DNA of 33,390 nucleotides from 'Osedax' symbiont bacterium Rs2_46_30_T18 (GTDB taxonomy: Bacteria > Pseudomonadota > Gammaproteobacteria > Pseudomonadales > Balneatricaceae), in assembly GCA_002163025.1 (NCBI GenBank), contig MABF01000322.1:1-33390 (forward strand). The letters are read 5' to 3'. Position 1 is the first letter of the stretch; the number at the start of each line of letters is the position of its first letter. A program made the position numbers and the translations under genes. Positions 26,002-33,390 of this stretch are shown piece by piece. Under the pieces are notes generated by a model. The model worked only from the letters and a program-made list of their open reading frames with translations, did no database searches and was not told the DNA's origin.

Positions 26002-26685
26002 CTAAAGTATTTGCTGTAACTGCAGGTATCTACTTGCCGCTATTGGAGTTTTGTCAAGCAGATACGGGACAACACCTAACAGAGGGGCATTGATCGCACT
26101 TTGCAAGGTGGCCACACTCTCCTCACTGGCCTCCATTTCTGGATCTATATGGTTGGCTACCCAGCCTGCTAAAGTAAGCCCATCTCTATTGATGGCCTCT
26201 ACTGTCAAGAGAGCGTGACTGATACACCCCAACTTGACTCCAACGACTAAGATTACCGGCAGGGACAGTGCCTTGGGAAGCTCCGCCAAAGTCTCGCGAT
26301 TGTTTAATGGCACCCGCCAGCCGCCCGCCCCCTCTACCAAGACAAAGTCAGCTCTATTCATCATAGCTCCACGACAAAAACCACTGATTCTCTGCAGGTC
26401 CAGAGTCTTGCCCTCCGCTTTCGCCGCAATATGTGGTGCTATTGCCCGCTCCAGCGCTATCGGGTTGACTTGCTGATAAGTTAACTTCACCGATGACGAC
26501 TGCATTAATTTCAGGGCATCTTCGTTGCGTAGCCCCTCCTCGGTCATCACGCTCCCCGCGGCAATTGGCTTTAAGCCGAAGCAGCTCATTTCTCGCTGCT
26601 TAGCAACCTCTAACAAAGCTTGCGAAATAAAAGTTTTACCTACATCGGTATCCGTTCCGGCGATAAAAAACTTGTGCTTGGCCAT
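26002..26685 (-). CDS. bioD: ATP-dependent dethiobiotin synthetase
   Basis: BioD carboxylates 7,8-diaminononanoate to dethiobiotin using ATP and CO2. The 227-residue product has the P-loop AGTDTDVGKTF near the N-terminus, LKPIAAGS for substrate binding, the VEGAGGWRVPL block and AGWVANHID. The start at 26685 is preferred because GGGAAATG lies just upstream and MAKHKFFIAGTD matches the family. It is the last gene of bioB-F-H-C-D, 29 bases after bioC. Confidence 0.96.
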   Translation of the reverse strand: MAKHKFFIAGTDTDVGKTFISQALLEVAKQREMSCFGLKPIAAGSVMTEEGLRNEDALKLMQSSSVKLTYQQVNPIALERAIAPHIAAKAEGKTLDLQRISGFCRGAMMNRADFVLVEGAGGWRVPLNNRETLAELPKALSLPVILVVGVKLGCISHALLTVEAINRDGLTLAGWVANHIDPEMEASEESVATLQSAINAPLLGVVPYLLDKTPIAASRYLQLQQIL

Positions 26686-26714
26686 TTTCATTTCCCAGTT
26701 CAAGGACTAAATTG

Positions 26715-27506
26715 TCACTTTTTTCTCAACAGTAAATAGTAAACTTCGTAAGTAGCTGGCAATTTGCCATTTTTCTGACGAAAACTCTCATAGTTGGATT
26801 TAAACTTGCCCACCCTTGCCCTGCCGGTGAGACCTTTGTTCTCTCCAACATTCATATTATGCGCACCGATGTTTTTAAGCTCCGAGGTTATTTCCGATAA
26901 CTTATTATACTCGAGCACTCTAATTTCACGGCGCTGCCTCTCTACTTGCAAATTTACTGGCAGGGCTGCAAGCACTTCTTCCAGCGCGACAAATTTGTTC
27001 ACATGTACATTTTGATCGACATCGGCCCAAGACTCTCGCAATTCAAACAAACTGCTCGGCCCAAGACTCGAAATCACCGCGCTGCCGCCACTGTTAAGCA
27101 CTCGGGCTAACTCTTTAAAAAGTTGCGTAAGACTAGAACACCATTGAATAGCTAAACTTGAATACAACTGTGCAACGCTGTTTTCTGCGAGAGGCAACGC
27201 CTCTGCATCGGCACACAGCCAATGCGCACCTGACAACCCCCTGGTGCTTCGGGCATGTTGCAGCATTCCCTGTGCAATATCCAGGCAAATTAAATCCCTG
27301 TGCGGATAGATATCGGTGAGATGCCTCGAAAAATAACCGGTACCACAACCTAAATCTAATATTCTTCCTGTTGCACAAATAGATGGATCTAGCCATTCCA
27401 ACAACTGCTCGCCAACATCTTGTTGCAGCGCCGCCGCTTTATCATAAGTGCCCGCTGCCTTGCTAAAAGAATCTGCAACTCTGATTTTGTCAATTATCGC
27501 AGCCAT
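26715..27506 (-). CDS. bioC: Malonyl-ACP O-methyltransferase
   Basis: BioC methylates malonyl-ACP with SAM, disguising it as a primer for pimeloyl synthesis by the fatty-acid machinery. The 263-residue protein has a class I SAM site (LDLGCGTGYFSRHL), the acidic loop LICLDIAQGML, and CADAEALPLAENSVAQLYSS. SSLAIQWC is characteristic of BioC. The later GLTGRARVGKFKSNYESFR stretch is also typical. The start codon immediately follows the bioH stop, so the genes are coupled. Confidence 0.94.
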   Translation of the reverse strand: MAAIIDKIRVADSFSKAAGTYDKAAALQQDVGEQLLEWLDPSICATGRILDLGCGTGYFSRHLTDIYPHRDLICLDIAQGMLQHARSTRGLSGAHWLCADAEALPLAENSVAQLYSSLAIQWCSSLTQLFKELARVLNSGGSAVISSLGPSSLFELRESWADVDQNVHVNKFVALEEVLAALPVNLQVERQRREIRVLEYNKLSEITSELKNIGAHNMNVGENKGLTGRARVGKFKSNYESFRQKNGKLPATYEVYYLLLRKK

Positions 27507-28286
27507 CTAATAGCGACCTGCATCAATGCGCTGGGTAAATCCAACCAATTCATCCGCCAGCCATTGCGGGTCAGAAATAAAAGGCAAATGCCCAGCTTCA
27601 GGAATTTCCAGGCCAGTAATGTTTATTCCCATTGCGCCAATCAAATGTCGCACCTTCCGAGGAACTAACTGATCCATTTCAGCGTAAAAATGCAGAGATG
27701 GCACGCCAAGCTGCCCTAGCGATTGCCTTAGATCATGTTTTAACAATTGCAAACTGGCACACAGCTGCTGGTGTTCAATATTCTTATCCACAGCCCGCAA
27801 ATGATTTAACACAGCTTTTTGCTGGCTACCATTTTGGACTTGTAACAGAAAAAATCTCGACAAGGTTTTTTCTGGTTGCCGGAGCAGATTAGCTTCAAAA
27901 GCTGCAAAATCATCCGCCGACATTGCCTCGGTCCAATCATCTCTTTGTACAAAACAGGGATTGCAAGCGATGGTGACCAAAGCTTTTATCCGCAGCTGTA
28001 ATTTCTGGGCCAGTGCGATAGCCAACATTCCACCAAGAGACCAACCCAACAAGATACTATTATCTGGCACTTTATCTGCCAGAGCCGATACTACCGACTG
28101 CAGTGAATAATTTTCAGAGTCAGAGACTGTGGATAACCCCAGCCCCGGTAGATCAATACAAGTAATTGAGTAATGCTCAGTCAGAAATGGTAGCCAGGGC
28201 TGCCAGATATCACTACTGGTTCCCCAGCCGTGCAGCAACACCAAGTCAGGCTTAGCAGATTGAGTTTTTTTAATATGGATATTCAA
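27507..28286 (-). CDS. bioH: Pimeloyl-ACP methyl ester carboxylesterase
   Basis: BioH removes the methyl ester from pimeloyl-ACP, ending the BioC/BioH cycle. The 259-residue protein is an alpha/beta hydrolase: VLLHGWGTSSDIW, nucleophile in GWSLGGMLAI, Asp in FYAEMDQLVP and His in PEAGHLPFISDP. Asn-Pro in TIACNPCFVQRDDW fits BioH. The start is TTG at 28286; the frame has no ATG before the conserved HIKKTQSAKPDLVLLHG. AAGAG seven bases upstream supports it. It overlaps the bioF stop by 17 bases. Confidence 0.94.
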   Translation of the reverse strand: MNIHIKKTQSAKPDLVLLHGWGTSSDIWQPWLPFLTEHYSITCIDLPGLGLSTVSDSENYSLQSVVSALADKVPDNSILLGWSLGGMLAIALAQKLQLRIKALVTIACNPCFVQRDDWTEAMSADDFAAFEANLLRQPEKTLSRFFLLQVQNGSQQKAVLNHLRAVDKNIEHQQLCASLQLLKHDLRQSLGQLGVPSLHFYAEMDQLVPRKVRHLIGAMGINITGLEIPEAGHLPFISDPQWLADELVGFTQRIDAGRY

Positions 28287-29451
28287 ATTTAATCTCTTTT
28301 ACCACTGTGGCTAAAGCCGCCAACAGCTGTTGTAAATCATCGAGGCTATGGGCGGCACTAAAAGTGACTCTAAGCCTCGCCTGGTTTAGCGGAACCGTTG
28401 GTGTGCGGATCGCTTTAACTTGCACCCCCAAACTCGATAGCTTTTCACTGATAGCGACAGCAGTATGCTCTGCCCCTATCATTATCGGCTGAATAGCCGT
28501 ATCAGAAGGTAGCAACACTAAGCCAAGCTGCTCACAACCGCTTTTAAACCGGGAGATCAACAGCTGCAAGTGTTCTCTGCGCCAACTCTCTTTTTGAATC
28601 AGTTTTAAACTAGTGCGCGAGGCTGCTGCAACAGCCGGTGGCATACTGGTGGTATAGATATAAGTACGAGAAAATTGGATCAATGTTTCTATTAAAGCAT
28701 CGCTGCCAGCAACAAAAGCTCCCGATGTACCAAAGGCCTTCCCCAATGTACCCATCAACACTGGCACTTGCTGCTCACTGAGCTTGTACAACTCACTGCA
28801 CCCCGCCCCAGTTTCTCCCAGAACGCCAATGCCGTGCGCGTCATCTATCATCAACCAGGCATTGTGCTGCAGTGCTTTGTCGGCTAAAGCGGGTAAATTT
28901 GCTATATTGCCGTCCATACTAAACACTGCATCTGTTACTACCAATTTACGGTTGGCAGTGGAGCGCACTAATTTCTTCTCCAGGCTATCGACATCGTTAT
29001 GCAGATAGCGCTGGAACTTAGCGCCAGATAATAATCCGCCATCGAGCAGTGATGCATGATTGAGCTTATCTTGAAAAACCGCATCAGTTTTACCTAAAAG
29101 AGCATTGATTACCCCGACATTAGCCATGTAACCACTGCAAAAAAGCAGCGCTCTGGAGCGATTACAAAATTCTGCCAACTCTAACTCTAACTCATGGTGA
29201 TGGTGACTGTGACCATTCACCAAATGAGAAGCGCCTCCACCGACTCCATATTCATCAGCAGCCAATTTAAAACTTTCCACCACCCGGGGATGATTGGCCA
29301 GGCCCAAATAATCATTTGAGCTGAAATTGAGCAAGGTTTTGCCAGCGACAATAATTTTCGGGCTCTGCGGGCTCTGCAGTATTTCCCGACGCCGATACAG
29401 AGAGCGCTGTTTTCGCTGGTCTAAGATTTGTTGTAAATTATCAAATGACAT
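28270..29451 (-). CDS. bioF: 8-amino-7-oxononanoate synthase
   Basis: BioF condenses pimeloyl-ACP (or CoA) with alanine using PLP. The 393-residue product has FSSNDYLGLANHP, YGVGGGASHLVNGHS, DDAHGIGVLG and the PLP lysine Lys238 in GTLGKAFGTSGAFV. The C-terminal block VKAIRTPTVPLNQARLRVT is typical. AAAGGTGG lies a few bases before the ATG. It follows bioB after 93 bases and overlaps bioH. Confidence 0.97.
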   Translation of the reverse strand: MSFDNLQQILDQRKQRSLYRRREILQSPQSPKIIVAGKTLLNFSSNDYLGLANHPRVVESFKLAADEYGVGGGASHLVNGHSHHHHELELELAEFCNRSRALLFCSGYMANVGVINALLGKTDAVFQDKLNHASLLDGGLLSGAKFQRYLHNDVDSLEKKLVRSTANRKLVVTDAVFSMDGNIANLPALADKALQHNAWLMIDDAHGIGVLGETGAGCSELYKLSEQQVPVLMGTLGKAFGTSGAFVAGSDALIETLIQFSRTYIYTTSMPPAVAAASRTSLKLIQKESWRREHLQLLISRFKSGCEQLGLVLLPSDTAIQPIMIGAEHTAVAISEKLSSLGVQVKAIRTPTVPLNQARLRVTFSAAHSLDDLQQLLAALATVVKEIKFEYPY

Positions 29452-29544
29452 AGGCAGCCACCTTTCACTAATTTAGCCAAAGGCAGATGCAGACCGCCCG
29501 GTGTGTTGAGCGCACTGCAATTGGACTAAAGCTGATGACTAAGA

Positions 29545-30588
29545 CTATGCCTGATAGAAATGGGAACTATCTTGCTCTGCCTGAATGTTTTTTAATAACA
29601 GCGCCGACTGAGTTTCATCATCGTCTGCAATCCCCTGTTCAGGGTTGATTCCCAAGCGTTTAAATAGAAGTAAATCTTTATTGGTTTCCGGGTTCGGGGT
29701 AGTAAGTAAACACTCACCATAGAAGATAGAATTAGCGCCGGCAAAAAAAGTCATCGCCTGCATTTCATCAGACATTGCCTGCCTTCCGGCCGATAGCCGC
29801 ACATGAGACTTTGGCATCATAATTCTGGCGACGGCAATAGTGCGTATAAAAATAAGATGATCTAAATCTTCGACATTCTCCATCGGAGTCCCGGCAACTT
29901 TGACCAACATATTGATAGGAACACTTTCTGGTTGGGTTGGCATATTCGCCAGCTGCATCAATAAGCCGATGCGATCACCCGCCGTCTCTCCCATCCCTAA
30001 GATCCCACCGCTACACACTTTCATGCCTGACTCGCGCACGTTGTGCAGAGTATCCAGTCGATCTTGATAAGTTCTGGTAGTGATTATTTTGCTGTAGAAT
30101 TCAGGTGAGGTATCCAGATTATGATTATAGTAATCTAACCCGGCATCAGCCAGTCTGTCAGATTTATCTTCATCCAACATACCTAAGGTCATACAAGTCT
30201 CAAGGCCGATCTCTTTGACCCTCTTTACCATTTCAAGAACATAGGGCATATCGCGCTCATGAGGATGCTTCCAGGCCGCCCCCATACAAAACCGGGTAGA
30301 GCCCGACGCCTTGGCTTGCTGCGCTTTAGCCACAACGGCCTCTACTTCCATCAAACGCTCGCGCTCAAGTCCAGTATTATAACGGGCGCTCTGCGGGCAA
30401 TATTTGCAATCCTCTGGACAGGCACCTGTTTTTATCGACAACAAAGTACTCACCTGAACCTGGTTAGGGTCAAAATTTTGCCGGTGAATAGTATGTGCTT
30501 TGAATAGTAAGTCATTGAATGGTAGTTCAAATAATTCCTGAACCTGGTTTTTAGTCCAATCGTGACGTAGCTGTCCATCTTGATGCAT
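29545..30588 (-). CDS. bioB: Biotin synthase
   Basis: BioB is the radical-SAM enzyme that inserts sulfur into dethiobiotin. The 347-residue protein has the radical-SAM cluster motif CPEDCKYC (Cys57, Cys61, Cys64), and the [2Fe-2S] ligands are visible in [20 protein letters not shown] and [13 protein letters not shown]. The ending is acidic and variable. It is the first gene of the operon and divergent from comF, as in Pseudomonas. A 12-base motif shared with the bioA upstream region lies 25 bases before the start. Confidence 0.98.
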
Positions 30589-31481: not shown

Positions 31482-32207
31482 ATGACGCAAACGCACTCCA
31501 GCTTCTCTTTTAAAACTATTGGCGTGGTCAAATCCCCTTTTCGACAAAAATTTGGGATCCCCCGCCAACCCGGACTTACTCCAGAGATTAAATCTTCAAT
31601 CGTGCTGGAACCTGAATACGCTAGCGACGATATCGTCGATCAACTATCACTGTCATCACACATTTGGATATTATTCGTTTTTAGCGCCTGCTACAAAAAA
31701 GACTGGAGCGCAAAAGTGCGACCTCCACGCCTGGGAGGCAATAAAAAGATCGGTGTATTTGCCAGCCGATCGCCTTTTCGACCAAACCCAATAGGCATGT
31801 CTGCGGTCAAGCTAACTGGCATACGCAAACAGCCTGGATCATTGATTATTGATGTATTAGCGGCTGATTTACTCGACGGCACTCCCGTCATCGACATCAA
31901 ACCTTATATCCCCTATGCCGACAAATTGACCGATGCCAGCAATCAATTGGCCGGATCTATTTCGCTACTGAGCCAACCGATCTTTTTTAGCTCTCAGGCC
32001 CTGCAGGTGTGCGAGCAGATATTATTATCCGGTGCAGAAAATTTAAGGGTAGAAATTGAGCAAGTGTTACGCTGTGACCCGAGACCTGCCTACCAAAAAG
32101 ACCAGCAAAGAATATATGGGCTATCCCTATACAACTTGAATATTCGCTGGCAAATCAGCACTGAAAGAATTGACGTATTGAGCATAGAAAATTTATCAAG
32201 CGACTAG
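31482..32207 (+). CDS. trmO: tRNA (t6A37) N6-methyltransferase TrmO
   Basis: TrmO (TsaA/YaeB/VirR family) uses SAM to methylate the t6A37 base of tRNA-Thr(GGU). The 241-residue product has the family N-terminus FKTIGVVKSPFRQKFGIPRQ, the core KVRPPRLGGNKKIGVFASRSPFRPNPIG split over about residues 80-108, and VLAADLLDGTPVIDIKPYIP. The C-terminus includes VLRCDPRPAYQ and YGLSLYNLNIRW, also family features. It lies between comF and bioA on the same strand. The stop codon falls inside the left arm of the inverted repeat described next. Confidence 0.93.
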   Translation: MTQTHSSFSFKTIGVVKSPFRQKFGIPRQPGLTPEIKSSIVLEPEYASDDIVDQLSLSSHIWILFVFSACYKKDWSAKVRPPRLGGNKKIGVFASRSPFRPNPIGMSAVKLTGIRKQPGSLIIDVLAADLLDGTPVIDIKPYIPYADKLTDASNQLAGSISLLSQPIFFSSQALQVCEQILLSGAENLRVEIEQVLRCDPRPAYQKDQQRIYGLSLYNLNIRWQISTERIDVLSIENLSSD

Positions 32208-32398
32208 GAGCATGCGATTAAGTCCAATATCTTCTCTGCGGGCTTAAAAACGGCTAATACCCATAAGTAGGGGCACACTGATACTTGAAAGGCAGCACAG
32301 CGCGATGACGAGCCCTTTCCAGGCTGAATGACAAAGTAGTTAACCGTTTTTAAACCCGCCCTTCAGGGCGTATTGGACTTGACCGTATGCTCCCTTAG
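32204..32398. repeat. Long imperfect inverted repeat between trmO and bioA
   Basis: Arms of about 54 bases (32204-32257) and 59 bases (32340-32398) are inverted copies. Matching blocks include GGAGCAT/ATGCTCC, AAGTCCAATA/TATTGGACTT, GCGGG/CCCGC and TTAAAAACGG/CCGTTTTTAA. About 44 bases match, with mostly C/T or A/G substitutions elsewhere and one unmatched patch (8 against 11 bases). The right patch contains a small hairpin CGCCC/GGGCG. The 82-base centre has a further hairpin GAAAGG/CCTTTC. It could be a MITE-like mobile element or a large regulatory hairpin. I see no clear target-site duplication. Confidence 0.8.
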
Positions 32399-32432
32399 CA
32401 ACCCTTTTTCTCAGCAGCACAAAGGATAAAAC

Positions 32433-33390
32433 ATGACTCCAGAACAATTGCAATTTGACCGCGAGAATATTTGGCACCCCTACACCAGCATGACACACCC
32501 GACGCCCTGCCTCCCCGTCGCATCGACTGAAGGTGTTTATCTGCATTTAAGTAGCGGCGAAAAGTTAATTGATGGCATGTCATCCTGGTGGTCTAGTATC
32601 CATGGCTACGGTCATCCAGCACTCAACAGTGCCGCTCATCAACAAATAGACACTATGTCGCATGTGATGTTTGGTGGCTTAACGCACGAACCCGCTATAG
32701 AACTGGCTAAGAAATTAACCGCCATAACCCCTGAGGGCTTAGACAAAGTATTTTTGGCAGACTCCGGATCTGTGGCCGTTGAAGTTGCCATTAAAATGGC
32801 CTTTCAATACTGGATTTCCAAAGGACAGACACAGAAAAACCGTTTGTTGACAATACGAAACGGCTACCACGGAGATACATTTGCGGCCATGGCGGTCTGC
32901 GATCCGATTAACGGAATGCACGACATGTTCAGTGACGTACTGGCCAAGCATTATTTTGCTCCTAGGCCAGAAACTAAATTTGACCAACAGTGGGATCCTG
33001 AAGATATCAGTGAATTAGCTAAAATACTGTCCGAGAACCATCGGCATATTGCGGCGTTAATTTTAGAGCCTATTGTGCAAGGTGCGGGCGGAATGCGCAT
33101 GTACAGCCCCGAGTACTTAGCGCAGGCAAAGAAACTCTGCGAAGAATTCAACGTGTTGTTAATCGCCGATGAAATAGCGACCGGCTTTGGCAGAACAGGT
33201 AAAATGTTTGCCTGTGAGCACTCAGCTATTGCGCCGGATATACTCTGTCTGGGGAAAGCGCTAACGGGCGGCTATATGAGCTTGGCTGCCACTATGACGA
33301 CCACAGCGATAGCCAACACTATTTCTGATGGCGGTGCCGGTTGCTTTATGCACGGCCCGACTTTTATGGGCAACCCTCTAGCCTGCGCCG
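32433..33390 (+). CDS. bioA: Adenosylmethionine-8-amino-7-oxononanoate aminotransferase, 3'-truncated
   Basis: BioA transaminates 8-amino-7-oxononanoate to 7,8-diaminononanoate with SAM as amino donor. An open frame of 319 codons runs from ATG 32433 to the window edge, so about the last quarter is missing. AAGGA six bases upstream supports the start. Family features are Tyr17 in [65 protein letters not shown] and the PLP lysine Lys275 in [13 protein letters not shown]. It lies apart from bioB-D but shares an upstream motif with bioB. Together they complete the biotin pathway from malonyl-ACP methyl ester. Confidence 0.97.

Follow-up and report, generated by a model that had tools for sequence, protein, structure and literature searches.

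Several small, folded repeats of bacteria have been described. The Correia or NEMIS elements of Neisseria are small and non-coding, carry terminal inverted repeats and a target duplication, and form a stable stem in transcripts (PMC2229807, PMC10969869). They measure about 107 and 155 bp and fold as a single long stem through pairing of their ends (PMC2229807), and cleavage of Correia transcripts by RNase III has been reported (PMC10969869). ERIC (RU-1, 127 bp) and YPAL (RU-2, 168 bp) are intergenic, multi-copy and folded, and ERIC affects mRNA stability in an orientation-dependent manner (PMC2229807). The alphaproteobacterial CIR repeats of Caulobacter and Brucella, of about 110 bp, consist of two long stem-loop arms and a linker, are conserved between species, contain a GANTC motif and have, as reviewed, no terminal inverted repeat (PMC2229807). 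REPs measure 20-40 bp and occur in intergenic DNA as paired hairpins of opposite orientation, or BIMEs (PMC3733652).

Here, we analyze a 33,390-nucleotide stretch of DNA (the window; contig MABF01000322.1, positions 1 to 33,390) from the 'Osedax' symbiont bacterium Rs2_46_30_T18, in which a member of a dispersed family lies between trmO and bioA. This family shares the general build of Correia/NEMIS, the intergenic, multi-copy and folded state of ERIC and YPAL, the two arms, linker and interspecies conservation of CIR, and the paired opposite hairpins of REP/BIME. It differs from Correia/NEMIS in its length of about 263 bp, its two inverted-repeat arms, its conserved inner motifs and its IS5-type YTAR duplications, and from ERIC in a layout that is alike read either way; CIR is set apart by its description, and REPs by their size, the present arms being about 100 nt long and enclosed by terminal repeats with YTAR duplications. 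Like ends and YTAR duplications are found in IS5-family insertion sequences and in IS5-derived MITEs, but the structured core of the family is absent from the insertion-sequence ends seen and also occurs inside quite different terminal repeats. No published description of the family was recognised in the literature searched; individual members may well have been described. The mobile element itself is a MITE; what is unusual is that it is an inverted dimer of apparently strand-selected hairpins, spread over different ends. The features of the locus are as follows.

31482 to 32207, + strand: trmO, its last codons changed on insertion
32204 to 32206: left copy of the target duplication, CTA, overlapping the trmO stop codon
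32207 to 32229, + strand: left terminal inverted repeat GGAGCATGCGATTAAGTCCAATA, from the inverted-repeat search and from dispersed copies with the same ends
32207 to 32229 with 32371 to 32393: outer inverted repeat, 23 nt, 87% complementary
32229 to 32377, + strand: hairpin arm 1, a match to covariance model R1 at 109.5 bits
32238 to 32257 with 32340 to 32359: inner inverted repeat, 20 nt, 90% complementary
32258 to 32281, + strand: 24-bp palindromic insert TACCCATAAGTAGGGGCACACTGA within arm 1, from alignments A1 and A2
32371 to 32393, - strand: right terminal inverted repeat, from the inverted-repeat search and alignment
32394 to 32397: right copy of the target duplication, CTTA, from comparison with locus L252
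32433 to 33389, + strand: 5' part of bioA, which runs off the window

An inverted-repeat search of the whole window (minimum length 20, at most 400 nt between arms) returned just these two inverted repeats, both inside a 187-bp element at 32207-32393 whose outer 20 bases pair at 17 positions and which contains no listed open reading frame of at least 80 amino acids. The RNA fold of 32190-32410 has an energy of -75.2 kcal/mol; 200 dinucleotide shuffles gave a mean of -53.0 (sd 4.7, z -4.8), one being equally good and 199 worse. The original prediction of long inverted arms is thus borne out. It had placed the element at 32204-32398; the element proper is narrower, and the outer bases of that interval belong to an imperfect target duplication, CTA/CTTA, which is not a clean YTAR. 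The left CTA may be read as CTTA minus one T, a single change, and a TTAG reading would need about three. The stop codon of trmO, TAG at 32205-32207, straddles the junction, being composed of the TA of the target site and the first G of the element, so that the insertion supplied it, as had been proposed; the product ends in SIENLSSD here and in SIESSKATF in a congener (G006).

In all seven genomes of the genus trmO precedes bioA. At locus L252 of the nearest congener (G005), CAACTTAACAACCC takes the place of GACTA-element-CTTAGCAACCC in the window, and the short trmO-bioA spacer of G006 (L251) is also empty. The site in G005 being empty, the insertion is lineage-specific. Even at E<=10, R1 matched between trmO and bioA in the own genome only, and no copy was detected there in any of the six congeners, where a clean empty-site alignment is confined to G005 and G006 and the longer, diverged spacers of L254 (about 245 nt), L255 and L256 count as empty in that the model found no copy. 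As a negative control, 657,227 bases around trmO of 80 other genomes contained no R1 match at E<=1. The biotin genes of the window are split: open reading frames that we read as bioD, bioC, bioH, bioF and bioB lie on the - strand at 26002-30588, and bioA lies on the + strand (32433-33389), past a comF-like gene and trmO; trmO and bioA were identified separately.

The original prediction raised the alternative of a large structured leader controlling bioA, and these comparisons bear on it, whether as a cis-regulatory leader or as a riboswitch of that gene. The element does stand directly upstream of bioA, in a region with a stable fold. However, no match lies upstream of bioA in six of six congeners, copies occur at many unrelated places, and neither an intrinsic terminator nor a sigma-70 promoter was found by pattern search within 32150-32460, element included. 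No Rfam family rose above noise: in a search of Rfam 15 none matched at or above its gathering score, the output consisting of unrelated tRNAs, one Moco riboswitch beside locus L077 and sub-threshold matches. (That riboswitch, at 58.8 bits, occupies L077 1782-1939, about 150 nt from a family member.) We consider a role in controlling bioA hardly credible.

The element is also not solitary, as it had first been thought to be. In the own genome, blastn gave 17 rows with E below 1e-3, which correspond to 15 places including that of the window, and many copies occur in congeners. A nucleotide search matched 31 of 57 genomes at E<=1, many rows being 20-base chance matches, and counts were therefore taken from the covariance model: R1 matched all seven genomes of the genus and, at E<=0.01, 21 of 57 relatives, including other families of the order. 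Loci L090-L092 apparently come from the same assemblies as G006, G003 and G001, with identical matches and coordinates, and are not independent. In samples of 369 genomes from the class and 200 from the phylum, the arm-1 model R2 matched 89 and 26, respectively, at E<=1e-4, nine of the 26 lying in another class; the two samples overlap, sharing the own genome and some others. Among 30 named genomes chosen from the 80 trmO loci, 13 match R2 and 17 do not, four Marinobacter genomes (loci L147, L153, L165 and L164) having no R2 match. Counted as arms rather than elements, R2 matches number 16 in Vibrio harveyi, 29 in Grimontia celer, 14 in Hahella and 10 in Shewanella. A Candidatus Thiodiazotropha genome (G617, from L113) has 109 R2 matches, and the equal scores of many of them suggest a recent expansion. 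One of 20 genomes labelled as outside Gammaproteobacteria matches, that of Desulfoluna (11 matches, 2.6e-6 to 2.9e-5), and its copies have a recognisable core and their own paired ends. Three family queries had no match in a plasmid collection, and one family query each had none in E. coli genomes or in phages. A Vibrio copy matched 10 records of the plasmid collection, including a 2.06-Mb Vibrio campbellii record; the family thus also occurs beyond main chromosomes.

The ends of the family connect it to IS5-type insertion sequences. Both ends and unique flanks were found for 96 copies, of which 73 measure 261-271 bp, 6 measure 174-221 bp and 17 measure 279-394 bp. A perfect YTAR duplication flanks 30 of the 96, compared with 4 of 1900 shifted controls, and is absent from the remaining 66. 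Autonomous relatives, insertion sequences with like ends, occur in other genera (L044, L294 and L297), each with an IS5-family transposase above the NCBIfam cut-off: the L044 protein scores 356 bits to NF033581 (cut-off 140), that of L294, an insertion sequence of 1169 bp, 207 bits, and that of L297 199 bits. L295 has like ends and in-frame stops. The own genome contains a transposase fragment (L299) at 131.3 bits, just below the NCBIfam cut-off of 140, for which no terminal repeat was found. PF01609 was hit at E<=1e-10 in 10 of 12 genomes searched; G004 and G036, both copy-rich, gave no hit at that threshold, so that there the partner transposase is missing or of another kind. Movement would be expected to occur in trans, by an IS5-family transposase. 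Terminal inverted repeats, small size, absence of coding sequence, dispersed copies and sites lacking the element are all found, and we conclude with considerable confidence that the element in the window is a non-autonomous, MITE-type insertion with IS5-type ends between trmO and bioA. The own genome also harbors mini-elements of 51-52 bp, hardly more than two ends, at L006 1490-1541, L011 1502-1552, L004 1501-1552 and L014 1490-1541; perfect YTAR duplications flank the ones at L006 and L011 (TTAG and CTAA, respectively) but not those at L004 and L014.

A typical member of about 263 bp consists of a terminal repeat, arm 1, a short central hairpin, arm 2 and a second terminal repeat, both arms being multi-part hairpins and arm 2 the reverse-complement homologue of arm 1. 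Opposite-strand matches to arm 2 were obtained with R1, which was built from arm 1, in 12 elements and with R2 in 24 of 37 distant ones; since models of arm 1 recognise arm 2 in this way, the element is built as an inverted dimer of a single hairpin. Compensatory changes on both sides are seen at 22 of 33 pairs in the 14 sequences of alignment A2. The unpaired conserved motifs read, approximately and on the working strand, CAAGGCGC - stem - GCAG..AAUGGY..GYCCUU..CAAG - stem - GCAACRC. Mobility and covarying structure had been put forward as an exclusive choice; both are found, and the exclusivity falls away. Because the family is at once mobile and strongly covarying, covariation is no argument against a MITE here. 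In L003, L009 and L010 arm 1 contains a 47-column insert with CAAAGC direct repeats at its flanks, which may be another small repeat nested there.

Quite different terminal repeats enclose the same core. Paired ends, with at least 14 of 20 positions matching, were seen in 23 of 24 core/end examples picked by eye, and 16 of the 23 measure 262-267 bp. Either the ends of one lineage drifted together with their transposases, or cores moved between ends. That 263 bp corresponds to 25 turns of B-DNA is an arithmetical guess at the reason for this length. By crude open reading frame calls, 26 of the 96 measured copies lie between tandem genes in the direction of arm 1 and 29 between tandem genes in the opposite direction; divergent genes flank a further 26 and convergent genes 8, with 6 copies located at edges and 1 within an open reading frame. 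Neither orientation is preferred, which is what an inverted dimer should show, although this is weak evidence for it.

Judged against its relatives, the copy in the window is a decayed, one-armed member of the family. It has no arm 2, which precedes the right end in full-length relatives; the inner motifs of its arm 1 are damaged (GAATG to GATG, CAAG to CAGG); and it carries the 24-bp insert, which most members do not have. With arm 2 missing, the insert present and conserved motifs altered, no selected function is expected there. This copy is probably inert except as a stable stem within the trmO-bioA transcript, on which RNase III might possibly act by analogy with Correia elements. The insert at 32258-32281 is a small palindromic repeat, TACCCATAA..GGGGCACAC, also seen at L031, L176 and L038: near-identical inserts lie inside two G006 copies (L031 and L176), and in G003 (L038) the repeat stands outside the element, that genome having many short matches to it.

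Strand asymmetry in the imperfect pairs of full-length copies indicates which strand of each arm is constrained. End-finding began from 102 places, one of them at a contig edge; those with weak ends or a length outside 255-290, the window copy among them, were dropped, leaving 81 full-length copies that were aligned with MAFFT, blind to structure, and in which pairs were chosen by Watson-Crick content alone. In the 29 non-redundant copies (<88% identity), G-U and A-C cells, which are not independent events, so that Fisher values serve as guides, numbered 33 and 3 over 22 pairs of arm 1, 12 and 33 over 24 pairs of arm 2, and 6 and 7 over 8 pairs of the terminal stem, the arm-2 count alone being free of the G-U-favouring covariance model by which arm 1 was picked. 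The ratios for arm 1, arm 2 and the terminal stem were 16:0, 2:18 and 3:3 in 13 copies of <70% identity and 83:12, 25:50 and 29:29 in 64 copies of <95% identity, and the pattern holds when any one of the seven genomes is left out. A separate set from the class and phylum, its arm 1 likewise picked with that model, gave 44:7 for arm 1 (37 copies) and 15:39 for arm 2 (24 copies), read on the arm-1 strand. Model-fitted pair counts (GU 74, AC 21) were set aside in favor of the structure-blind test because the covariance model favours G-U. Since what reads as an A-C mismatch on one strand reads as a G-U pair on its complement, selection seems to act on the + strand for arm 1 and on the - strand for arm 2; we infer that each arm is selected as a folded single strand. 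Integron attC sites were considered because of the strand-specific fold of the family and seem unlikely, the copies in the Vibrio harveyi, Grimontia, Shewanella and Hahella genomes being scattered over many contigs instead of forming a single array.

Long stems are a general property of folded MITEs, and the arms could be plain palindromic sequence in which template switching between them is alone responsible for the pairing, with a fold that has no function. The terminal stem, at 6:7, shows no bias and would accord with such an origin. Homogenisation by template switching could raise pairing in this way, but it would not flip the bias between the arms, and the bias is opposite in the two; moreover, the unpaired motifs (CAAGGCGC, GCAG..AAUGG, CCUU..CAAG and AACGC) are conserved across distant genomes. 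We regard an origin by template switching alone as improbable. Selection of the arms as folded single-stranded DNA, for instance in the lagging-strand template or a transposition intermediate, deserves more weight, although we still think it rather unlikely. Folding of single-stranded DNA is known for REP hairpins, GTAG- or CGTC-tagged palindromes that go with a RAYT transposase, and for the ends of IS200/IS605, paired inverted hairpins recall BIMEs, and copy length is nearly constant. The strand asymmetry fits a folded DNA strand equally well: G-T is better tolerated than A-C in DNA too, and the asymmetry therefore does not separate RNA from single-stranded DNA. On the other side, the ends and the YTAR duplications are of IS5 type, and the DDE transposase of such elements works on double-stranded DNA; the central loops, which resemble C(UNCG)G on either strand, also look RNA-like to us.

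In the mechanism that we consider most likely, and on balance probable, the arms work at the level of RNA, in transcripts reading through the element. Owing to the inverted-dimer layout, whichever arm RNA polymerase reached first would be the working one, regardless of the orientation in which the element had inserted. The working arm would help both host and element to tolerate insertions inside operons, for example through reduced polarity or defined mRNA ends. Tentatively, and with rather more doubt than confidence, we propose that the family may be a widespread, uncatalogued mobile module in which a conserved structured hairpin is present as an inverted dimer, with each hairpin selected as a folded single strand on its own DNA strand, so built as to be independent of orientation. 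It would travel as a passenger inside the ends of different insertion sequences, changing vehicles, and would serve itself as a structured RNA that eases insertion into operons.

The locus between trmO and bioA carries a warning, in that strong covariation at a single locus can stem from membership in a mobile family rather than from regulation of the adjoining gene. If the arms are functional RNA, they would rank among the commonest structured RNA modules in Gammaproteobacteria, hitch-hiking on the ends of insertion sequences. In that case the family would also show how a selfish element has solved the problem of inserting in random orientation, and it makes the reason for the strong structure of bacterial MITEs directly testable.
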